A stretch of 39,813 bases of DNA, taken from Blautia sp. (GTDB lineage Bacteria; Bacillota; Clostridia; Lachnospirales; Lachnospiraceae). The stretch spans positions 1-39,813 of the forward strand of contig JAFTPT010000012.1 of the NCBI GenBank assembly GCA_017463155.1, written 5' to 3'. The translations under genes were made by a program, and so were the position numbers. Positions 19,444 to 29,407 of this stretch are shown here, one piece after another; the stretch's first letter is position 1, and every line of letters starts with the position of its first letter. The notes under the pieces were generated by a model. It ran no database searches and had not been told where the DNA came from. It saw only the letters and a list, made by a program, of their open reading frames with translations.

Positions 19444-19477
19444 TTGACACCCCGGACAAAAGGAGAGTACCATGTAG
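19444..19477 (+). promoter_or_regulatory. Candidate promoter and ATG-TAG start-stop element ahead of the T7SS locus
   Basis: TTGACA at 19444-19449 and TACCAT at 19468-19473 (18-base spacer) form a possible promoter. The same stretch holds a good ribosome site (AAAGGAGAG, 19458-19466) followed at proper distance by ATG 19472, whose next codon is TAG (19475-19477). This ATG is in frame with the real start at 19526. The two readings conflict: if the promoter is used, the start-stop element is not transcribed whole. AT-rich TATAAT-like boxes further upstream (19414-19419, 19436-19441) could instead drive transcription. Confidence 0.4.
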
Positions 19478-19525: not shown

Positions 19526-21154
19526 ATGAAAAAAACAGGACTCCTTGTGTGCCTGCTGCTGTCTGCACTATCTCTTACCATACGGTGTCATGCGGAGCCG
19601 TTCCTGATGGAATCCCGCGCTGCCACAGAGGCCGACGGGATCTGCCTTTTTGCGGGCGGCCTTTCCGGGACTGCGGCGGACGTCTCCGGGCTTCTCGGGA
19701 CGGCCAGGGCGGATGTGACTCTGACCCGTGACGCCATCTTCAAGGTCAGGACCATGCTCCTTGTCGACAACTCCCGCTCGATCTCCGGCAGCAGCCAGAA
19801 GAAGATCCGTGAACTTCTGACGGCGGTCGTCGAGAACCGGAGTCCGGAGGAGACCTTCTGCCTGGCTGTTTTCGGTGAACAGCCGGTGACAATTCTGCCC
19901 TTCGGGACCTCTGCCGAAGAGGTCCGTAAGGCCATTCAGGAATTTCCCTTTACAGATCAGAATTCATATCTGCCCGAGGCGGTGCTTGTGGCGGCGGAAG
20001 TTTTCCCGGCCGCGGAAGAGCCCTGCTATGACCGGATGATCATCGCGTCCGACGGAGGCGAGACAAAGACAGGCGGCCTCACGGAGGAGGAAGTCATTGA
20101 GACGCTCCGGCAGAAGGAGATCCCGGTTTTTTCGCTGGGCTCTTTGTGGAACGGCAATCCGGAAGGACAGAGCTCTCTGGCATCCCTGGCCCGCCGGAGC
20201 GGCGGTGCCTATCTGCTCCTGCAGGAGCAGACAGCCCCGGAGGAACTGCTGCAGATGCTTGAAAAACAGAAGCCGCAGGTTGAACTATGTGTAAAAGTGC
20301 CTGCAGACCAGTGCGATGGCGGCCTCAGGAACCTGCAGCTCACATTCTCCATGGAGGATGGAAGCCGGGAAGTACTGAACCACGAGGTGCGGATGCCCCA
20401 GGCAGCGCTTCCGACCGGGACGCCGGTTCCGACGGCGACGCCGGTCCCGACGAATACACCGGTTCCGACGAGACCTCCGGCTCTTGTCCGGACGATCTCC
20501 CCGACACCGGTCCCTGTACGGGAGGCGGATTCCCTGTGGGAGATCCTGACAGGAAGAGAGAAGGCGCCCCTGGGGATCCCGCTCTTCCTGTGGCTCTTTG
20601 CTGTTTTGCTTTTGGCGGCAGGTGTTTCTGCGGCTTATTTTTACCGGAAAATGCAGAAGGACGAGGCACCGGCGGAAACGGAGCCGGAGCCGTTCAGCCT
20701 GTTCGGAGAGCCCGATGCACCCGCGGACGTTGCGGAACGGTCCTCCGGTCCGGATATGCCGGTGCGGCGCACAGAGCAGCCGCCTTCCGCCCGGACACGA
20801 AAATCATCCGCAGATGAAGAAGTGACGCAGCTTCTGTTCCCGGAGCCCGGCGAGGAGAAGCTCCTGGTCCTCCGGACGCTGAAGGAACCGGCCAGAGACT
20901 ACCAGATGCCGCTCCGGAGCGCCCTCGTGGCCGGAAAGAGCAGCCAGTCGAGCGACCTGGTCATCGAGGATGATCCGGCTGTTTCGCGCCATCACTGCAG
21001 GTTTTCCCTGGAGGACGGGGCCGTGTTCCTGGAGGATATGCAGTCCAGGAACGGGACGTGGCTGAACCGGCATAAGATCAGCGGAAAGGAGAAGGTCAGC
21101 TCGGGAGACAGGATCCGTATCGGTGATACGGAACTGGAGCTGGAGATCCGCTGA
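19526..21154 (+). CDS. VWA-TM-FHA membrane protein of the T7SS-like locus
   Basis: A 542-residue protein with clear parts. A signal peptide covers residues 1-23. A von Willebrand factor A domain follows, with metal-site motif D81-x-S83-x-S85 (LVDNSRS) and a later aspartate in IIASDGGETKTGG. A Pro/Thr linker lies at about 295-330, one transmembrane helix at about 352-373, and a C-terminal forkhead-associated (FHA) domain at about 455-542 (SRHHCRF, SRNGTWLN). The VWA part should be outside and the FHA part in the cytoplasm. The usual FHA glycine-arginine is glycine-lysine (AGKSS), so phosphothreonine binding may be weak. The stop overlaps the EssC-like start as ATGA, so the two are coupled. It probably acts in the secretion complex; the exact role is unknown. 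Confidence 0.9.
   Translation: MKKTGLLVCLLLSALSLTIRCHAEPFLMESRAATEADGICLFAGGLSGTAADVSGLLGTARADVTLTRDAIFKVRTMLLVDNSRSISGSSQKKIRELLTAVVENRSPEETFCLAVFGEQPVTILPFGTSAEEVRKAIQEFPFTDQNSYLPEAVLVAAEVFPAAEEPCYDRMIIASDGGETKTGGLTEEEVIETLRQKEIPVFSLGSLWNGNPEGQSSLASLARRSGGAYLLLQEQTAPEELLQMLEKQKPQVELCVKVPADQCDGGLRNLQLTFSMEDGSREVLNHEVRMPQAALPTGTPVPTATPVPTNTPVPTRPPALVRTISPTPVPVREADSLWEILTGREKAPLGIPLFLWLFAVLLLAAGVSAAYFYRKMQKDEAPAETEPEPFSLFGEPDAPADVAERSSGPDMPVRRTEQPPSARTRKSSADEEVTQLLFPEPGEEKLLVLRTLKEPARDYQMPLRSALVAGKSSQSSDLVIEDDPAVSRHHCRFSLEDGAVFLEDMQSRNGTWLNRHKISGKEKVSSGDRIRIGDTELELEIR
20411..20480 (+). repeat. Short tandem repeat coding a TPVPT linker
   Basis: The DNA repeats an ACGCCGGTTCCGACG-like unit three to four times and encodes PTGTPVPTATPVPTNTPVPT. 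It forms the flexible extracellular stalk between the VWA domain and the membrane helix, and its unit number may vary between strains. Confidence 0.7.
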
Positions 21155-24100
21155 TGGGTATGAAGATCACGTTTTTTACCAAAGAGGGCTGCCGGGAGGA
21201 ACGGCTTCCGGACAAGAACAACGAAGATCATTATGTGGTGCTCCCCGGGACTTTCCTGGGACTTAACGAAGCTCTCTCTGTTCATTTTGAAGTGCTGGAG
21301 GAAACATGGAGGATCTGCCCGGAGGAGGGATACGCTCTTTTCCGGGACGGGCGGGAGGTCACAGGAAGGATCGTCCTGTCCGGGAACGGGAGGCTGGAGA
21401 TCCGGGCCGGACGGGAAATACGGATCCCGCTCCTCTATACAGAGATCAAGCGGCAGCTGTATCCTTTCTCCAAATACCATGTACCCTCCGGCGTTCCGGT
21501 CAGTATTGGGCGGAGTCCGGCAAGCCTGATCAGGTGCAGGAACAGCCTGGTTTCCTCCGAGCATGCGGTGCTGATCCGAAGAGGAACCTCCTGGGAGATC
21601 CGGAATCTGAGCGAGAACGGCGTCTATGTCAATGACCGGATCGTCTGGAAGACCTGTACGGCGTCGTTCGGAGACCGGGTGCATGTGGTCGGGCTGCAGC
21701 TCGTGCTGCTTGGCCGGTATATCGCCGTGGACTGCCGGGAAGATCCTGTCACGGTCCATCCATGCCTGCTTCCCATGGGACAGGAGAAAACCGCCGGAGA
21801 CTCCGGCGCCCTGCCATCCCCGCGGGAGAGCGGGATCACCCTGATCCACCGGTCGCCAAGGATCGCGGCAGGGATGGGAGCGGAGCAGATTGAGATTGAG
21901 GAGCCTCCGTCCCTTCCCGACAAGGAGTCCGCCTCCTTCTGGCTGACGGCGGGCCCGTCCCTGACCATGATGCTTCCCATGCTGCTCGGGAGCTTCCTGA
22001 TGGCCCTTTCTTACCGGAGCAGCGGTTCATCGGGAGGAACATTCCTGTACGCGGGCATTCTGATGACCACCTCTTCTGCCGTTCTGGCAGCATTCTGGGC
22101 TTTGTTCCAGATCTATCACCAACGAAAAGAACAGATCAGTAAAGAAAATGAATCCACCTCTGCCTATGAGCGGTACCTTGCCGCAAGGGAAAAGGAGCTG
22201 CGCGACGGCTATGACGGGGAGAGGCAGAGACTTCTGGCCCTGTATCCGGCACCGCTTTCCCGGACGGGGACGACAGAGGAAGGTACGGAGCGGGGAGGAC
22301 TGTGGAACCGGAACCCGGAACACGGGGATTTTCTTGCCCTCCGGCTGGGCCTTGGTGAAGCCTGCTTTTCCACCGAGATCCGGATCCCGCCGGACAAATT
22401 CATGGTCAGGAAAAATCCGCTGTGGGACAGGCCGGCAGAGCTGAAACGAAGGTACCAGACGCTTAGGGGAATCCCAATCCTGCTGGATCTTCTGGACACT
22501 CCGCTGATCGGCCTGGTGGGAGGCACGGGAAAAGGCGGCTGCGAGACGCTGGTCCGGACGCTGGCCGTGCAGGCTGCGGCAGCGGACTGTTACACAGATC
22601 TCAGGATCGCCTTTGTTTCCAGGCGGAAGGATGCACTCTTTTCCCGGCTGCAGCAGGAACTGCGGTGGCTTCCGCACGTGTGGAAGGACGGGGGAGAACT
22701 GCGCTACATGGCCGACAACGAGGAGGATGCATCCGGCGTTCTCTATGACCTTGTACAGAACGCCGGGATCGAAGACAGGGATATGGAGGAGGCACCGGCG
22801 GATCCGGACTTACCGCATTTTCTCCTCTTCCTTTCGGACGCGTCCCTTCTCGAAGATGACGGGACAGCGTATCGCTTTTTCAGACAGCCCGGCAGGTACA
22901 GGATCACGACACTGATCCTGGCGGACGAGCAGGAGGAGCTTCCCAACGAATGTGCCTGCTTTGTGCAGAACGACGAAGATTTCAGAGGGATCGTGCGGGT
23001 CCTCCCGGAAGGGATCCGGCGGATCCCGGTCGATTTTGACCGGCCGGACGCAAAGAAGGCGGAACGGTTTGCCAGGCATCTGTCCAACTGCCGGGTCAGG
23101 GAGAGAGGGAAGAAAGGAGAGATTCCCGATCTTCTTACTTTTTTCGATATGTACCAGGTGGCCCGTGCCGAGGAACTTGGAGCCAGGGAAAGATGGCTTA
23201 AGAACAGGACCACACGAGGTATCCGCGGTATGCTGGGCCGGGGCAGCGGGGGAGAGACGGTTTACCTGGATATCCATGAGCGGTATCACGGGCCCCACGG
23301 GCTGGTAGCCGGGACGACCGGATCCGGAAAAAGTGAGACACTCCAGACGTTTATCCTTTCTCTCGCAGTCCAGTACAGCCCGGATGCCGTCTGCTTTTTT
23401 GTGATCGATTACAAGGGAGGCGGGATGGCCGGCCTGCTCGAGGGACTGCCGCATATGATCGGGGAGATCTCCAATCTGTCGGAAAGAGGAGTCCGGAGGG
23501 CCATGGTGTCGATCAAGAGCGAGAACAAAAGAAGGCAGCGGATCTTCCGTGAGTACGGGATCAACCATATTGACGCCTATACGGAACTGTACCGCGCCGG
23601 TACCGCCCCTGTTCCGATCCCGCACCTGATCCTGATCGTGGATGAATTCGCCGAGCTGAAAAGGGAGGAACCGGAATTTATGCAGGAGCTGATCAGCGTC
23701 GCGCAGGTGGGGAGAAGCCTCGGCGTTCATCTGATCCTGGCGACCCAGAAGCCGGCGGGGACGGTGGATGAGCATATTCTAAGCAACACCCGCTTCCGGA
23801 TCTGCCTGCGGGTGCAGGACCGCTCCGACAGTCTGGAACTCCTGCACAGACCGGACGCGGCCGGCATCACCCGGACGGGAAGAGGCTATCTGCAGGTCGG
23901 AAATGACGAACGGTTCGAGCTGTTCCAGTCCGGCTACAGCGGAGCCCTTTGCCCGTCGGAGGACAAAGAGAAGGAGGAGGAAGCTGTTCCTGTGGGCCTG
24001 TCGGGCCGCCCTCTCATCAACCGGACCAGGGAAGGGGCAAGGCCGGGGGAAGGCCGCGCACAGCTCGAGGCGGTACGGGAATACCTGAAAAAGACGGCGG

Positions 24101-25800
24101 ACAGCTTCGGCTTCCGGCAGACATTTTATCTTTGGCTGCCGTATCTCCCGGCATGCCTTCCTGCCGCAGCGGTGGAGGAGACGATCGAAGAGACGGGGAG
24201 CGGAAGAGGAGAAAAGGAGCTTCTGCTCGGAATGCTGGACGATCCCGAAAACCAGACGCAGATCCCGCTTACGCTTCTGCTGCCGCCGGAAGGCCATCTG
24301 GCGGTATTCGGCCTGCCGAGATCCGGAAGGACCGTCTTTCTCCAGCAGCTCCTGCTGGAGCTCTGCCTGAAAATGCGGCCGTCGGAACTCTTCCTGTATA
24401 TCCTGGATTACGGGAGCGGAGAACTGAAAGCCTTTTCGGAGGCACCGCACACGGGCGGTTACCTGACGGAGGAGGATGCGGACAGGACGGCACGGATGTT
24501 CCGGATGCTTCGCAGGATGCTGAATGAGCGGAAAAAGGAACGCCAGGGAGCGGATCCTCCGGGCAGTTCACGCCCCGCCGTTCTGCTTGTCATCGACCAT
24601 CTGGAGCTTTTCCGGGAGCAGACGAAGGAACGGTACGAGGAGGACCTGCGGCTCCTCTTTCAGGAGGGACCGTCCGCCGGTCTGTATCTGGTCCTGTCGG
24701 CGAACGGGATCGGGACACGTGACCTGCCGGGCCGGTACACGGAGTACCTTTCGGAGGTCTTCTGCCTGGAGATGGCGGACCGCTACGGTTACATGGAGGT
24801 GTTCCGGGGGACCGGGCCTCTGCCGGATCCGGAGAGGGGCATTCCCGGAAGAGGCGCCGTGGAATATGAGGGACGGGTCCTGGAATTTCAGACCATCCTT
24901 CCGGGTGCCCTTCAGGAGCCAGCCCTGCGGGAGGAGTTCCTGAAGGAAGAGCTTACGGCGCTTCATCATGAGCATGCCGGGGAGCGGGCGATTCAGATCC
25001 CATCGCTGCCGGAAAGACCGGAGACGGGGAATTTCGCGGTGCTGCCGGAGACGATACGTGCTCTGGAATCGCCCGCCTGCCTGCCCTGCGGGTACGATAT
25101 GACGACCGCGGAGGTTTTTTCACTTCCGCTGGACCGGATCTTCTGTTTCCTCATCACGGGCAGCAGAGGGACGGGCAGAAGGAATTTCCTGAACGTGCTG
25201 CTTGAAATGACCGCCAGGAAAAACGGCACGACGGTCTTTATGGACCGTTCCGCCTATGGAAACCGGGAGATGCCGGGGGAAGCTGTATTCCTCAGGACGG
25301 AGGACGAGATCTTCCGGTATTTCAGGGATGAGCTTACGCCGCTTTTAAAGGAAAGGAACCAGGCCAAGCAGTCCTTCATGGCTGAGGGCATGAAGGAAAC
25401 GGAACTGTTCCGGAGAATGTCCGGCATGTACCCGCCGGTATTTCTGCTGATCCCGGATCTCGAATGGTTTCTGGAGCTGGTCTACCGGTCCAGGAAGGGA
25501 ATGCAGGGCTTTGTGGAGATGATCTTCGAAAAAGGAGCGCTTCACAACCTGTACTTCTTTGCCATCGCGGCGGGGAACAGGAAGAAGGAACTGTCCGGTT
25601 ATCCGGCCTTCCGTTTCTTTGTACAGGACAGACAGGGGATCCGTTTCGGCGGAAGAGCCTCGGAGGACAGCTGGCTGGATTTTGAATATCTGGACTATCG
25701 TGAGCAAAGCCGGAAGCTGGAACCGGGGATCGGACAGCTTTCGCACGGACCTGAGAGCGGTCCGGCCGAGAGGATCCTTGTGCCCCTTGCCAGGGGCTGA
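21154..25800 (+). CDS. essC: EssC/YukB-like FHA-FtsK/SpoIIIE ATPase of a type VII secretion system
   Basis: A 1548-residue motor protein, the length of T7SSb EssC. Two N-terminal FHA-like domains (about 1-95 and 110-190; the second has IGRSP, SSEHAV and ENGVYVN) precede two membrane helices at about 268-287 and 298-320. Three FtsK-type ATPase domains follow. D1 has an intact Walker A GTTGSGKS (720-727) and Walker B LILIVDEFAEL (D830). D2 has GLPRSGRT (1053-1060), where lysine is replaced by arginine. D3 has GSRGTGRR (1336-1343), lacking both lysine and the Ser/Thr. Only D1 looks catalytically complete, similar to the regulatory D2/D3 of known EssC/EccC. It drives export of WXG100 substrates. 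The EsaB gene follows after 15 bases. The gene symbol is by family resemblance. Confidence 0.93.
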   Translation: MGMKITFFTKEGCREERLPDKNNEDHYVVLPGTFLGLNEALSVHFEVLEETWRICPEEGYALFRDGREVTGRIVLSGNGRLEIRAGREIRIPLLYTEIKRQLYPFSKYHVPSGVPVSIGRSPASLIRCRNSLVSSEHAVLIRRGTSWEIRNLSENGVYVNDRIVWKTCTASFGDRVHVVGLQLVLLGRYIAVDCREDPVTVHPCLLPMGQEKTAGDSGALPSPRESGITLIHRSPRIAAGMGAEQIEIEEPPSLPDKESASFWLTAGPSLTMMLPMLLGSFLMALSYRSSGSSGGTFLYAGILMTTSSAVLAAFWALFQIYHQRKEQISKENESTSAYERYLAAREKELRDGYDGERQRLLALYPAPLSRTGTTEEGTERGGLWNRNPEHGDFLALRLGLGEACFSTEIRIPPDKFMVRKNPLWDRPAELKRRYQTLRGIPILLDLLDTPLIGLVGGTGKGGCETLVRTLAVQAAAADCYTDLRIAFVSRRKDALFSRLQQELRWLPHVWKDGGELRYMADNEEDASGVLYDLVQNAGIEDRDMEEAPADPDLPHFLLFLSDASLLEDDGTAYRFFRQPGRYRITTLILADEQEELPNECACFVQNDEDFRGIVRVLPEGIRRIPVDFDRPDAKKAERFARHLSNCRVRERGKKGEIPDLLTFFDMYQVARAEELGARERWLKNRTTRGIRGMLGRGSGGETVYLDIHERYHGPHGLVAGTTGSGKSETLQTFILSLAVQYSPDAVCFFVIDYKGGGMAGLLEGLPHMIGEISNLSERGVRRAMVSIKSENKRRQRIFREYGINHIDAYTELYRAGTAPVPIPHLILIVDEFAELKREEPEFMQELISVAQVGRSLGVHLILATQKPAGTVDEHILSNTRFRICLRVQDRSDSLELLHRPDAAGITRTGRGYLQVGNDERFELFQSGYSGALCPSEDKEKEEEAVPVGLSGRPLINRTREGARPGEGRAQLEAVREYLKKTADSFGFRQTFYLWLPYLPACLPAAAVEETIEETGSGRGEKELLLGMLDDPENQTQIPLTLLLPPEGHLAVFGLPRSGRTVFLQQLLLELCLKMRPSELFLYILDYGSGELKAFSEAPHTGGYLTEEDADRTARMFRMLRRMLNERKKERQGADPPGSSRPAVLLVIDHLELFREQTKERYEEDLRLLFQEGPSAGLYLVLSANGIGTRDLPGRYTEYLSEVFCLEMADRYGYMEVFRGTGPLPDPERGIPGRGAVEYEGRVLEFQTILPGALQEPALREEFLKEELTALHHEHAGERAIQIPSLPERPETGNFAVLPETIRALESPACLPCGYDMTTAEVFSLPLDRIFCFLITGSRGTGRRNFLNVLLEMTARKNGTTVFMDRSAYGNREMPGEAVFLRTEDEIFRYFRDELTPLLKERNQAKQSFMAEGMKETELFRRMSGMYPPVFLLIPDLEWFLELVYRSRKGMQGFVEMIFEKGALHNLYFFAIAAGNRKKELSGYPAFRFFVQDRQGIRFGGRASEDSWLDFEYLDYREQSRKLEPGIGQLSHGPESGPAERILVPLARG

Positions 25801-25815
25801 CAAGAGGAAAAGCAT

Positions 25816-26061
25816 ATGATACTTGTGGAGATACGGATCCCGGTTCTTCACGAAACCATTGATTTCCGGCTCAGGGAAGACGGGACGGCCGATGATATCC
25901 GGCGGTCGCTCCTTCGGAGCCTGCGGATGATGACACATGAGGACGGACCGGACGAGGACGGATTCGTCCTGCTGGACGCGGACAGCGGCCGGATCCTTTC
26001 CGGCGGCCGGACGATGAAGGAATGCGGGATCAGAAACGGCAGCAGCCTGATGCTGCTGTAG
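25816..26061 (+). CDS. esaB: EsaB/YukD ubiquitin-like T7SS accessory protein
   Basis: An 81-residue protein of the YukD family (PF08817), length and fold as expected: a first strand pair (LVEIRIPVLHETIDFRLRED), a helix (ADDIRRSLLRSLRM), a strand with the LLDADSGRIL turn, and the ending CGIRNGSSLMLL typical of beta-grasp folds. It is encoded right after the EssC-like ATPase, as in other T7SSb loci, where EsaB is a small cytoplasmic regulator or assembly factor. AGAGGAAAAG precedes the ATG at 25816. Confidence 0.88.
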   Translation: MILVEIRIPVLHETIDFRLREDGTADDIRRSLLRSLRMMTHEDGPDEDGFVLLDADSGRILSGGRTMKECGIRNGSSLMLL

Positions 26062-26078
26062 GAAAGAAGGGACAGAAT

Positions 26079-26378
26079 ATGGGAGTAATCCGCGTCGACC
26101 CGGACCGGATCCGGTCCGGATGGGAGGAGACGGGAAGACGGCAGGAGGAGCTGCGGCAGCAGATCGAAGAGCTCAGGGCGGCAGTCGGTGCTCTGGCTGC
26201 GGGCTGGAGCGGGGAAGCGGCCTCGCAGTTTGAGACAAGGGTCCTGGAAGGGCTGGCCTCTTTTGAAAAGATCTGTGCGGATCTGGAAAATCTGTATGCG
26301 TGGGAGGACCGGATCATTACTACGTTCCAGAGGGAGGAAGCGGCGGCAGGCGGACTTGTCAGCAGGGCGGCCGTATAG
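26079..26378 (+). CDS. WXG100-family protein A
   Basis: A 99-residue helical-hairpin protein. The WXG motif is W-S-G (GWSGEAASQFE, about 44-54) at the turn between a helix rich in E/R (EETGRRQEELRQQIEEL) and a second helix. Such proteins form four-helix dimers and are either secreted by or help secretion through T7SS. An AAGGG ribosome site lies seven bases upstream of ATG 26079; the frame is open further upstream but has no ribosome site. First of five in a row. No signal peptide. Confidence 0.88.
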   Translation: MGVIRVDPDRIRSGWEETGRRQEELRQQIEELRAAVGALAAGWSGEAASQFETRVLEGLASFEKICADLENLYAWEDRIITTFQREEAAAGGLVSRAAV

Positions 26379-26395
26379 AGGAGGAAGAGAACAAC

Positions 26396-26713
26396 ATGGA
26401 TATTCAGCTTAAGGTATCTCCGGAGCAGATCGTAAAAAAGGCAGATGAGATACAGGGAACTCTCGGAAACATCCGGAGGTCCCTGCAGGGCCTCGAAAGC
26501 AGCTGGAACGCCTGCCACCGGAGCTGGGAAGGCGAAGCGGCCGCGCGGCATATCGCCCTGCAGAAGCAGATCCAGCAGGAGGCATTCCGGGTGCTTCGGC
26601 AGATGGAAAAGTGGCCGGGCCAGATGTGCGTCATGGCGGGCGTCTACCGGAAGGCCGAAGCCGAGGCTTCGGAGGAAGCCGGTATGCTGCCCGGAGACAT
26701 CCTTGTTTCATAG
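26396..26713 (+). CDS. WXG100-family protein B
   Basis: A 105-residue protein with the motif SWEGEAAARH (about 43-52) between two helices (PEQIVKKADEIQGTLGNIRR and KQIQQEAFRVLRQMEKWPGQ). It starts at ATG 26396 behind GAGGAGGAAGAG. The N-terminus IQLKVSPEQI resembles that of the fifth protein in the array (IILKVSSDKL), suggesting a common ancestor. A C-terminal YxxxE-like piece (YRKAEAEASEEAG) is present, similar to T7SS export tails. Likely a secreted substrate or partner. Confidence 0.88.
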   Translation: MDIQLKVSPEQIVKKADEIQGTLGNIRRSLQGLESSWNACHRSWEGEAAARHIALQKQIQQEAFRVLRQMEKWPGQMCVMAGVYRKAEAEASEEAGMLPGDILVS

Positions 26714-26777
26714 GATCGTACTTTGTGTACTGTTCCTGTGAAGCAAAACCGCTACCAAGGAAGGAAATACAAAAGAG

Positions 26778-27101
26778 ATGAAAACAGAGTATCAGATCTA
26801 CATGGATTACAAGAAGACACTGCAGCAGGCGGATCACCTGAGCCGTGCCGGCAAGGATCTGATCAGGGCGGCAGATCAGACGGCCGCGGGGATCTTTTCC
26901 GGAACCGGCTCCGCATGGAAGGGAACCTCTGCAGGGATTTTCAGCAGTAAGGGAAAAAGCCTGCGGCAGAAGATCCGCCGCAGCGGGAACGACCTGTGCG
27001 GGGCGGCGGATGTGATCCGCAGGACCGCGTCGAATCTCTACCGGGCGGAGATGCAGGCCCTCGCGATCGCCCGGACAAGGAACCGTGAGACAATGGATTA
27101 A
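26778..27101 (+). CDS. Divergent WXG100-like protein C
   Basis: A 107-residue small helical protein with a less typical WXG-like turn (SAWKGTSAGIFSSKGK, about 46-61). It differs most from the other four: it opens MKTEYQIYMDYKKTLQQADH and its second half is basic (LRQKIRRSGNDL). It may be a helper for an effector rather than a true WXG100. AAGGAAGG precedes ATG 26778 by several bases. The 64 bases before it hold no gene. Confidence 0.7.
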   Translation: MKTEYQIYMDYKKTLQQADHLSRAGKDLIRAADQTAAGIFSGTGSAWKGTSAGIFSSKGKSLRQKIRRSGNDLCGAADVIRRTASNLYRAEMQALAIARTRNRETMD

Positions 27102-27120
27102 ATGCAGAAAGGAAAACGAT

Positions 27121-27420
27121 ATGGCAGCAGAGATCAGAGTGACCAGTGCGGCCCTCCGCAGCCGGAGAGAGGAACTGGAACAGGCGAACGGACAATTCAG
27201 GGAGCTTCTGGAGAGACTGGAGAGTACGGTGGGCATGCTTGCCGCCAGCTGGGAAGGAGAGTCCCATGACGCGTTTTACCAGGCCTTCAAGGAGGACCGG
27301 GGAAAGATGGACCTGTTTTCCGACACGGTCCGTGCCTACGGAGCGACACTGGATAATATGATCAACAAATACGAGGCGGCAGAGAAAGCCAACACGATTC
27401 TGGCGAGAAGCCGCGCATGA
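27121..27420 (+). CDS. WXG100-family protein D (EsxA-like)
   Basis: A 99-residue protein, the most canonical of the group: IRVTSAALRSRREELEQANG, the turn LAASWEGESHDAFYQAFKED (WEG at about 44-46) and a second helix ending in LDNMINKYEAAEKAN. The YEAAEKA tail fits the Y-x3-D/E pattern of T7SS export signals. AAAGGAAAACGAT precedes ATG 27121. The frame is open upstream, but homology starts here. It is a likely secreted EsxA-type substrate. Confidence 0.92.
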   Translation: MAAEIRVTSAALRSRREELEQANGQFRELLERLESTVGMLAASWEGESHDAFYQAFKEDRGKMDLFSDTVRAYGATLDNMINKYEAAEKANTILARSRA

Positions 27421-27434
27421 AAGGAGAGGATCAC

Positions 27435-27752
27435 ATGGCGATCATTCTTAAGGTATCATCGGACAAGCTTCTGGCGGCAGCCTCCACGCTGTCGGACCAG
27501 GGCGGGGAACTGAAAACACTGACGGACCGGATGCTGAACCTGATCGGGGAGATCTCCGCGGATATGTGGAGCGGTGAGGCGGCTCTTTCGTATAAAACGA
27601 AATTTGCGGCGCTGTCCGGCGACATGGCCAGGATCCACGCCATGATCAGGGAACATGTGACTGATCTGCAGGGCATCGCAAGAACCTATCAGACGACAGA
27701 AACCGAGAACCAGGAACTCTCCGGAGCGCTTGCATCGGATGTCATCTTGTGA
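27435..27752 (+). CDS. WXG100-family protein E
   Basis: A 105-residue protein with the turn DMWSGEAALSYKTKF (WSG at about 45-47). AAAGGAGAGG lies nine bases before ATG 27435. The C-terminal helix contains YQTTETENQEL, compatible with a Y-x3-E export tail. It is the last gene of the T7SS-like locus; the stop codon overlaps the predicted promoter of the next operon, and no terminator is obvious. Confidence 0.9.
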   Translation: MAIILKVSSDKLLAAASTLSDQGGELKTLTDRMLNLIGEISADMWSGEAALSYKTKFAALSGDMARIHAMIREHVTDLQGIARTYQTTETENQELSGALASDVIL

Positions 27753-27764: not shown

Positions 27765-27967
27765 AAAATGATAAGGCAGGTGAACAGAGTGGACAGTTGT
27801 GATAGTCATGGTCGAAGTAGAAATACGGATGGGATCCGGCAGGCTGCTGACATCATACAGCGGCTGTCTTTTCTGTCGCCTGCGGACATTTTCTCCATGT
27901 GAGCAGTGCGCGTAAGCGGCAGTCTGGTTCCGTCCGTTCGTGAATGAGGCGAAAGGAGGAAACGGAC
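27765..27967 (+). promoter_or_regulatory. Long untranslated leader of mgtE, structure of unknown type
   Basis: About 200 bases without a convincing gene. An 8-bp stem with two G-T pairs (27842-27849 with 27858-27865) is followed by the T-rich GTCTTTTCTG. Many Firmicute mgtE genes have a magnesium riboswitch here (M-box), but I do not find its conserved sequence. A plain leader or another kind of sensor is equally possible. Confidence 0.3.
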
Positions 27968-29407
27968 ATGGATGAAGAGCGTGTAAACACGGAAGAACAG
28001 TCCGAGAATGAAGTGAATCTGCAAAGACCGAATTACAGGGGAGATATTATCCGGATCATCCGGAGCAATGCCTCCCCTAAAGCTATGAGCTACAAGCTCA
28101 GCGATTACCATGAGAACGATATCGCGGAAGTTCTTCCCGACCTGACACCGGCGGAAAGGCGCAAGCTCTATATCGTGATGGACATGGGGGTCCTTGCAGA
28201 TATTTTTGAGTACCTGGATGAAGACCAGGCAAGCGCCTATCTGTCCGAAATGGACATCAAGAAGGCGGCTGCCATCCTGTCCGGTATGGAATCGGACACG
28301 GCCGTGGACGTGCTGCGTGAGATCGAAAAGGAGCGCCGGGCGCTTTTGATCGAGCTGATGGATGAGGATTCGCGCAAGGACCTGCGGCTGGTCGCCTCGT
28401 TCGATGACGACGAGATCGGCAGCAGGATGAGCATGAACTATATTGTCATCCGCGAGAACCTGACGATCAAACAGGCTATGAGCTCCCTGATCGAGCAGGC
28501 TTCCGAAAATGACAATATCTCGACATTGTTCGTCGTCGATGAGACGGGCTCCTTCTACGGGGCGGTCGACCTGAAGGAACTGATCATCGCCCGCCAGGGA
28601 ACGGAGCTGGAATCGCTGATCGTGACTTCCTATCCGTATGTGTACGGGTATGAGAGCATCGATGACTGTATCGAAAAACTGAAAGACTATTCCGAGGACT
28701 CGATCCCGGTCCTTGACAACAGCAACCACCTGCTCGGCGTCATCACCTCCCAGAGCATCATCGAGGTCGTGGACGATGAGATGGGTGAGGATTACGCAAG
28801 ACTTGCCGGTCTGACCGCAGAGGAGGATCTGAAGGAGCCGCTGAAGGACAGCCTCAAAAAACGTCTTCCCTGGCTTCTGACCCTGCTGGTGCTCGGCATG
28901 CTGGTATCGACGGTGGTCGGCGCGTTCGAGAACGTGGTATCCCAGCTGACGCTGATCATGGCTTTCCAGTCACTGATCCTTGACATGGCCGGTAACGTGG
29001 GTACCCAGTCCCTGGCTGTAACGATCCGCGTCCTGATGGACGAGTCGCTTTCCGGCAAGCAGAAGATCGGCCTTGTACTTAAGGAAGTCCGTATCGGTTT
29101 ATGCAACGGCCTGCTGCTCGGCAGTCTCTCGTTCGGGATCGTAGGCCTGTACATCATGATGCTCAAAGGACATACGGCCGGTTTTTCCTTCCTGGTTTCC
29201 GGCTGTATCGGCGCATCGCTTCTGGTGGCCATGATCTTTTCGAGCGCGGTGGGAACGCTGATCCCGCTGTTTTTCAAGAAGATCAACGTGGACCCGGCCG
29301 TGGCTTCGGGCCCGCTGATCACGACCATCAACGACCTGGTGGCCGTCATTGCCTACTACGGTCTGAGCTGGCTGCTGCTGATCCAGACCTTCCGGCTGGC
29401 CGGGTGA
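27968..29407 (+). CDS. mgtE: Magnesium transporter MgtE
   Basis: A 479-residue Mg2+ channel. The N-terminal helical domain (DLTPAERRKLYIVMDMGVLADIF) is followed by a CBS pair (about 140-265) with a typical ending NHLLGVITSQSIIEV; these cytoplasmic domains sense Mg2+ and gate the pore. The membrane domain of five helices starts near 300 and includes ILDMAGNVGTQSLAVTIR, a pore block common to MgtE. GGAGG lies eight bases before ATG 27968; an upstream in-frame ATG (27944) has no ribosome site. Length and order match the family. Confidence 0.95.
   Translation: MDEERVNTEEQSENEVNLQRPNYRGDIIRIIRSNASPKAMSYKLSDYHENDIAEVLPDLTPAERRKLYIVMDMGVLADIFEYLDEDQASAYLSEMDIKKAAAILSGMESDTAVDVLREIEKERRALLIELMDEDSRKDLRLVASFDDDEIGSRMSMNYIVIRENLTIKQAMSSLIEQASENDNISTLFVVDETGSFYGAVDLKELIIARQGTELESLIVTSYPYVYGYESIDDCIEKLKDYSEDSIPVLDNSNHLLGVITSQSIIEVVDDEMGEDYARLAGLTAEEDLKEPLKDSLKKRLPWLLTLLVLGMLVSTVVGAFENVVSQLTLIMAFQSLILDMAGNVGTQSLAVTIRVLMDESLSGKQKIGLVLKEVRIGLCNGLLLGSLSFGIVGLYIMMLKGHTAGFSFLVSGCIGASLLVAMIFSSAVGTLIPLFFKKINVDPAVASGPLITTINDLVAVIAYYGLSWLLLIQTFRLAG

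Follow-up and report, generated by a model that had tools for sequence, protein, structure and literature searches.

A compact type VII secretion-like locus in Blautia sp. that pairs an EssC-type motor with a VWA-TM-FHA membrane protein and five WXG100-size proteins

Positions 19526..27752 of a 39,813-nucleotide stretch of DNA from Blautia sp. (assembly GCA_017463155.1, contig JAFTPT010000012.1; the whole stretch is called the window below) hold a compact gene set of the type VII secretion system (T7SS) kind, in which an EssC-like motor is encoded beside a membrane protein that joins a VWA domain, a transmembrane (TM) helix and an FHA domain. With middling confidence, we read this locus as a compact member of an EssB-independent T7SS subtype that occurs mostly in Lachnospiraceae, and its VWA-TM-FHA protein (VWA-FHA hereafter) as a phospho-regulated envelope adaptor, not as a full replacement of the T7SSb membrane scaffold (EsaA, EssA and EssB). 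The genes of the locus and the evidence for each are as follows.

19526..27752, + strand: whole locus; eight open, co-directional open reading frames (ORFs) for the VWA-TM-FHA protein, the EssC-like motor, YukD and five WXG100-size proteins
19526..21154, + strand: VWA-TM-FHA protein, 542 amino acids (Pfam, AlphaFold2 model, fold matches, conservation)
21154..25800, + strand: EssC-like FtsK/SpoIIIE motor, 1548 amino acids (TIGR03928, trees, motifs)
25816..26061, + strand: YukD/EsaB ubiquitin-like protein, 81 amino acids (PF08817, 35.6 bits, cut-off 27)
26079..26378, + strand: WXG100 protein 1, 99 amino acids (PF06013, 35.3 bits; gene order)
26396..26713, + strand: WXG100 protein 2, 105 amino acids (PF06013, 42.2 bits; gene order)
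26778..27101, + strand: WXG100-like protein 3, 107 amino acids (PF06013, 18.6 bits, E-value 0.0023, under cut-off; gene order)
27121..27420, + strand: WXG100 protein 4, 99 amino acids (PF06013, 45.6 bits; gene order)
27435..27752, + strand: WXG100 protein 5, 105 amino acids (PF06013, 45.5 bits; gene order)

These ORFs lie where the original prediction had put them and are open, co-directional and tightly spaced, with gaps of -1, 15, 17, 17, 64, 19 and 14 bases in gene order. The VWA-FHA stop and the motor start overlap by one base, and the eight genes encode no further membrane protein besides VWA-FHA and the motor. For the fifth WXG gene, a start at 27435 is likelier than one at 27417, judged by eye from a ribosome-binding-like stretch ahead of it. 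Profile searches agree with the naming of an EssC-like motor (TIGR03928, 909.6 bits, cut-off 778.4), an EsaB/YukD homologue and five WXG100-size proteins, except that the third WXG gene lies under the PF06013 cut-off of 27.3 bits that the other four pass. Two features of T7SS membership are thus present, namely a motor of the EccC/EssC family of FtsK/SpoIIIE proteins and WXG100 protein (four of five genes over cut-off).

The absence of EsaA, EssA and EssB, claimed at first for the locus, held when the search was widened to the whole assembly (3.07 Mb in 55 contigs, 92% complete). Neither EssB (PF10140) nor EssA (PF10661) gave a match in the window's own genome, with B. subtilis positive as a control for each, and none was found for EsaA (TIGR03929, N-terminal part only), for which four controls including B. 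subtilis were positive. We therefore set aside the idea that the missing parts are encoded elsewhere in this genome, given that EssB, EssA and the EsaA N-terminus were not found in an assembly of this completeness. Across the family, EssB exceeded its cut-off in 7 of 150 genomes (own genome included), and these seven are the genomes whose EssC belongs to one T7SSb-type group (L001-L006, L016), a group outside which the window EssC falls. No EssB over cut-off occurs in the 14 other genomes assigned to the window's EssC clade; the clade genome G147 gave 18.8 bits, below that level.

The EssC clade was defined from trees whose input combined 80 loci from a scan of named contigs, 40 genome loci, 24 shorter loci and the window; 140 EssC sequences were longer than 1100 amino acids, and 125 rows were used after 15 near-duplicates had been dropped. 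The window EssC lies in a clade of 80 of these 125 rows (Shimodaira-Hasegawa-like support 99), and in a 42-row set analysed with IQ-TREE it lies in a 16-row group (SH-aLRT, the corresponding approximate likelihood ratio test, 98). This clade is separate from the EssC of T7SSb; the trees do not fix the window's exact place within the 80 rows, and one locus, L181, falls inside the clade in the 125-row tree and outside the window's group in the IQ-TREE analysis. The loci from named contigs are the best 80 of at least 556 EssC loci and come mostly from metagenome-assembled genomes (MAGs) of Lachnospiraceae and other Clostridia; within that best 80, the EssC-locus records that are not marked as MAGs include Blautia luti, Oribacterium sp. 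KHPX15, Anaerosporobacter faecicola and Lachnoanaerobaculum saburreum. Two more such records, from Anaerobutyricum hallii and Bilifractor porci, have EssC outside the window's clade. A record titled as a Deltaproteobacteria MAG (L138) carries EssC, YukD and five WXG genes; its EssC groups with Oscillospiraceae and Lachnospiraceae rows, and the contig was possibly wrongly binned.

Co-occurrence ties VWA-FHA to this clade. Counting an orthologue at a profile match of at least 200 bits, we found VWA-FHA in 10 of 14 genomes of the genus with clade EssC (own genome included) vs 0 of 50 others, and, across the family without the own genome, in 7 of 14 vs 0 of 135 (Fisher P values of 7e-9 and 1e-8, respectively, which ignore relatedness). 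The truncated EssC of two genomes, G167 and G208, was assigned to the clade by score; in G198 it is VWA-FHA that is truncated, and the 135 family genomes include some with unplaced EssC pieces (G006, G092, G095, G101, G105 and G113 among others). For 50 loci without a nearby VWA-FHA gene, at least 12 genomes carry a frame with both parts, and in at least 4 of these genomes it reaches 200 bits. VWA-FHA genes thus follow EssC in one direction: at this threshold they occur only with clade EssC in the genus and family samples, but they are not universal in the clade. As a separate observation, G107 encodes a VWA-FHA protein of 188 bits (G107:C12:11449-12870), and the contig that holds it also carries an EssC that falls outside the clade.

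The architecture of the protein suggests what it might do. Pfam matches VWA (E-value 9e-10) and FHA (E-value 3.9e-17), and a single TM stretch was placed from residue 346 by a crude scan and at 352-378 as a helix in an AlphaFold2 model (mean predicted local distance difference test, pLDDT, 75). As modelled, a beta-sandwich split by the VWA domain (~26-289) is followed by the TM helix, a disordered linker that holds a conserved threonine, T434, and the FHA domain (445-541). The fold matches bear chiefly on the VWA and FHA domains; those found by Foldseek that span the sandwich and VWA have root-mean-square deviations above 10, so the relative placing of these two parts is uncertain and the fold assignment provisional. 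The N-terminus looks like a signal peptide by eye only; the crude scan picked up a stretch of this kind in most of the relatives shown and did not in the window protein. The VWA domain probably lies outside the cell and the FHA domain inside. Among 27 aligned sequences, residues resembling a metal-ion-dependent adhesion site are kept in the VWA domain (D81 in 27, S83 in 26, S85 in 25, D176 in 26), as are the phospho-binding residues of the FHA domain (G470 in 27, S487 in 24, H490 in 25, N509 in 26), and T434 is kept in 23 of 27, vs a mean of 5 for the other linker columns. The FHA part resembles the FHA domains of GarA, OdhI and TB39.8. The stretch around T434 may resemble the GarA/OdhI phosphosite; where the profile aligns with GarA, it does so over the FHA domain.

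The motor carries an FHA domain of its own at residues 116-171 (Pfam), ahead of two hydrophobic stretches near 268-320 that are visible by eye and that the crude scan flagged in neither case. The phospho-binding site of this domain is complete in the window EssC, and G119, H137, N155 and G156 are invariant in 17 of 17 clade sequences. The motif of the first ATPase module is intact. The own genome holds one EssC match over cut-off and one weak FtsK-like match.

The WXG100 genes behave as an ordered set. We compared 43 loci that each have a run of five WXG genes and no more (left from 47 after removal of 4 duplicates, and partly outside the 80-row EssC clade) and found that the best one-to-one matching keeps gene order in 662 of 903 locus pairs, where chance is 1 in 120 per pair and the pairs are not independent. 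The window's order is kept against 32 of the 42 other loci, and the third gene, though under cut-off, matches the third gene of other loci. On this evidence from sequence matching, the five genes are positional orthologues. In the window and its 32 order-keeping loci, the tail motif YxxxD/E occurs in genes 1 to 5 in 31, 32, 1, 33 and 31 of 33, respectively, so that gene 3 forms a class without it (present in 1 of 33). The own genome has no PF06013 match beyond the five locus genes at E-values up to 0.1, and Lap-like partners were discounted on that basis, LXG not having been searched genome-wide.

Many relatives add genes for a TM-FHA protein, a kinase, a PP2C phosphatase, a LytTR-domain protein and a protein of ~240 amino acids, and we therefore place the window at the compact end of a system that is larger elsewhere. 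Among the bigger loci the genes recur, with some shuffling, in the order TM-FHA, EssC, LytTR-domain, ~240-amino-acid protein, YukD, WXG set, VWA-FHA, PP2C and kinase (the maps rely on a basic ORF caller and on profiles of our own making and can miss genes; identities are from Pfam searches of representatives). An EspG-like identity was considered for the ~240-amino-acid protein, which had no significant sequence match in the PDB (best E-value 0.11). Within the window's genus, L096 and L101 have VWA-FHA, TM-FHA, EssC, YukD and five WXG genes, and L102 has VWA-FHA, EssC, YukD and four called WXG genes. In three loci, a trypsin-like protein with a C-terminal FHA domain follows the WXG set (L092:15200-16540, L137:7524-9053, L139:16556-18433); these proteins share the kind of tail seen in VWA-FHA and have another domain in front.

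Kinase and PP2C genes adjoin VWA-FHA in several relatives. The own genome holds five kinase matches, three of them with an adjoining PP2C-like gene and including a PASTA kinase; one Ser/Thr kinase and PP2C-like pair (L204, contig C17, 7726-10286) lies directly after rpoB-rpoC, its kinase without a PASTA match and its PP2C called by a home-made profile. Such genes could act in trans on the window's system. The genome's other FHA match was considered as a hidden T7SS part and rejected: it is a DUF6382-FHA gene (L234, contig C50, 9432-10880) in a Tad-pilus-like locus, amid T2SSE, T2SSF, TadE and DUF5702 genes. FHA matches of similar extent occur in many genomes of the genus.

The signalling genes near VWA-FHA in relatives, LytTR-domain genes included, together with the likeness of its FHA part to GarA, OdhI and TB39.8, would also suit a protein that is mainly a sensor, whose VWA domain senses envelope stress or a ligand outside the cell and whose FHA domain relays this to kinase signalling that sets T7SS activity, with no part in the channel. 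We think this unlikely: the one-base overlap with the motor gene and the complete EssC FHA site point to direct contact, and no regulator, LytTR gene included, lies at the window locus.

Under the adaptor reading that we prefer, the motor together with YukD would export the five WXG100 proteins, which probably pair into a fixed set of dimers; other cargo may be exported as well. The VWA domain would bind a ligand outside through its metal site. A Hanks-type Ser/Thr kinase, encoded elsewhere in the window's genome and adjoining in several relatives, may phosphorylate linker T434 or a partner; the FHA domain of VWA-FHA or of EssC would read the mark and so couple or uncouple the VWA protein and the motor, and a PP2C phosphatase would reset it.

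A number of observations weigh against this reading. Weaker VWA-FHA proteins (~520-655 amino acids) occur without clade EssC in 6 of 50 genomes of the genus and in the family genomes G107, G124 and G130. Hand-read lists for the clade's 80 rows gave 40 with VWA-FHA of either family, 3 with a cut-off copy and 37 with none (weak matches in G143 and G173 were left out of this tally), and 18 of the 37 form one subclade, in which no match with both VWA and FHA appears among the matches listed; one member, G216, has a VWA-only piece. T434 is a candidate phosphosite by its conservation alone. In the EssC FHA domain, the residue that follows G119 is arginine in 7 of 17 clade sequences, lysine in 5 and something else in 5, and at the site of the serine 12 have serine, 3 alanine and 2 glycine; because the site is only partly kept in the clade, our confidence came down from slightly better than even to the middling level given above. 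Further, the eight proteins of the locus include no kinase (nor, by Pfam, a phosphatase or DUF6382), the only putative cargo known for the locus is the WXG proteins, and ATPase modules two and three of the window EssC carry arginine in place of the Walker A lysine, which aligned relatives keep in 14 of 16 and 16 of 16, respectively.

These arginines, the compact gene set, the weak third WXG gene and the lack of another WXG100 match in the genome would be expected of a shrinking remnant of a larger system that no longer secretes. We consider this improbable in the face of eight intact, tightly spaced ORFs, the intact first-module motif and the nearly identical compact sets of L096, L101 and L102 in the genus (L096 and L101 with a TM-FHA gene).

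The subclade of 18 rows bears on the original prediction that VWA-FHA replaces the missing scaffold. In its fullest form, this would make the protein a structural stand-in for EsaA, EssA and EssB, its cytoplasmic part docking on the motor as the EssB pseudokinase does on the EssC FHA region and its ectodomain forming the outer part. There is a precedent for such a link in B. subtilis, where the YukC/EssB pseudokinase is reported to copurify with the YukB FHA region in a manner judged phosphorylation-independent (PMC9600267). The standing of VWA-FHA as the sole other membrane protein of the locus, its overlap with the motor gene and its tracking of the EssC clade fit as well. Against this stand the 18-row subclade without a listed match, 19 further rows without one (some on short contigs), the other FHA-tailed proteins of relatives, and a build of one TM helix and a disordered linker. 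In two loci of the subclade, moreover, a different single-TM protein occupies that region before TM-FHA (L120:7841-9454, with TPR and carboxypeptidase-regulatory-like domains by Pfam; L151:7740-9293, the same by eye). Because of this subclade and these two loci, plain replacement of the scaffold is unlikely, and the prediction was too strong on this point.

If the adaptor reading is extended to the relatives, these loci may represent a T7SS subtype beyond T7SSa-j that rests on a fixed and ordered five-WXG set and in which FHA tails plug either a VWA or a trypsin-like protease module onto the motor and read phosphothreonine marks; we offer this wider proposal tentatively, as somewhat doubtful. 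If it were true, kinase signalling would select the surface module that the motor engages. The locus is of interest because it points to a T7SS in gut bacteria that seemingly works without the T7SSb membrane partners, and its conserved series of five WXG100 proteins in fixed order contrasts with the view of a single EsxA or a single pair in each system.

Two features lie outside the eight genes.

19444..19473, + strand: promoter-like site, TTGACA, 18 nucleotides, TACCAT (consensus scan, 10 of 12 positions match)
27944..29407, + strand: MgtE-like gene (putative, named without a search), outside the system; shared neighbour in four related loci

The promoter-like site, ~50 bases upstream of the VWA-FHA gene, is weak evidence because 5 such sites were observed in 9 kb, vs a shuffled mean of 2.3. 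The MgtE-like gene is 76-77% identical to the gene adjoining the system in L096, L100, L101 and L129, so the window and these four share a chromosomal neighbour in five genomes. A mobile island is not favoured, both on account of this common neighbour and because 0 of 674 matching plasmid records cover 80% of EssC in one place (best identity ~31% among the matches listed). Elsewhere, in G088, a protein of 1651 amino acids that is Rhs/YD-repeat-like by eye lies directly before EssC (L088:10710-15665).

Set beside known systems, the locus is probably a new T7SS subtype, although what first suggested a variant, the lack of EsaA, EssA and EssB, is not new by itself: eight subtypes, T7SSc-j, were published in 2024, and EsaA, EssA or EssB is listed for none of them in the text of Garrett, Higginson and Palmer (2024, PMC11217815). 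That source gives the core WXG100 proteins of these subtypes as one or two, and the window's gene set has no match among T7SSc-j as described in its main text; nor was another description found among the open-access papers listed, PMC1779556 and PMC3482391 included. The distinction from T7SSc-j is one of described gene content, and the locus may yet lie inside or next to one of these subtypes, T7SSi or T7SSj being our guess.

With T7SSb (Ess/Yuk of S. aureus and B. subtilis) the locus shares an EssC-type motor with an FHA region, YukD/EsaB and WXG100 proteins, and it differs in that EssB, EssA and EsaA were not found, in its separate EssC clade and in its five WXG100 genes. Conservation of the FHA phospho-binding residues is described as lacking in YukB and S. 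aureus EssC (PMC9600267); the window's EssC has the full set and its clade retains part of it, which suggests a role for the EssC FHA domain where it stands beside a second FHA protein. The motors of T7SSd, T7SSe and T7SSj reportedly keep the phospho motif too (PMC11217815, the source for the subtypes compared below). T7SSc includes a vWA component (TscE) along with a kinase and a PPM phosphatase, and counterparts of the two enzymes occur in the window's relatives; in contrast, TscE is predicted to be cytoplasmic, with no signal peptide or TM helix, whereas the window's VWA domain shares one protein with TM and FHA parts, and T7SSc EssC is described without the FHA domain. T7SSe, T7SSf and T7SSj resemble the window in a motor with FHA and a YukD-like protein, and they have an FHA accessory protein, TsxJ, and a PPM phosphatase; T7SSe and T7SSj have a kinase, in T7SSj with a TPR part, and an Ig-like envelope protein, TsxI. 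The window's relatives carry genes for PP2C and for kinases, of which one that was scanned includes TPR, as in T7SSj. TsxJ, however, is DUF6382-FHA and not VWA-FHA, and the window locus has neither TsxJ nor the kinase TsxD and phosphatase TsxF of T7SSe and T7SSj, its kinase and PP2C genes lying elsewhere in the genome. T7SSi (Vallitalea) includes a LytR-like regulator, TsiN, in its cluster together with the EspG-like TsxG and with TsiM; TsiN recalls the LytTR-domain gene of many window relatives, but the window locus has no such gene, and the text on T7SSi tells of no VWA-FHA protein or fixed WXG set. A parallel to the combination of domains comes from the ArnA-ArnB pair of Sulfolobus, where FHA and vWA form one phospho-switched module and the vWA domain splits a beta-sandwich, as modelled here (PMC12852372); ArnA and ArnB are described as two soluble regulators of archaellum genes, whereas in the window the two parts belong to one membrane protein and probably lie on opposite sides of the membrane.

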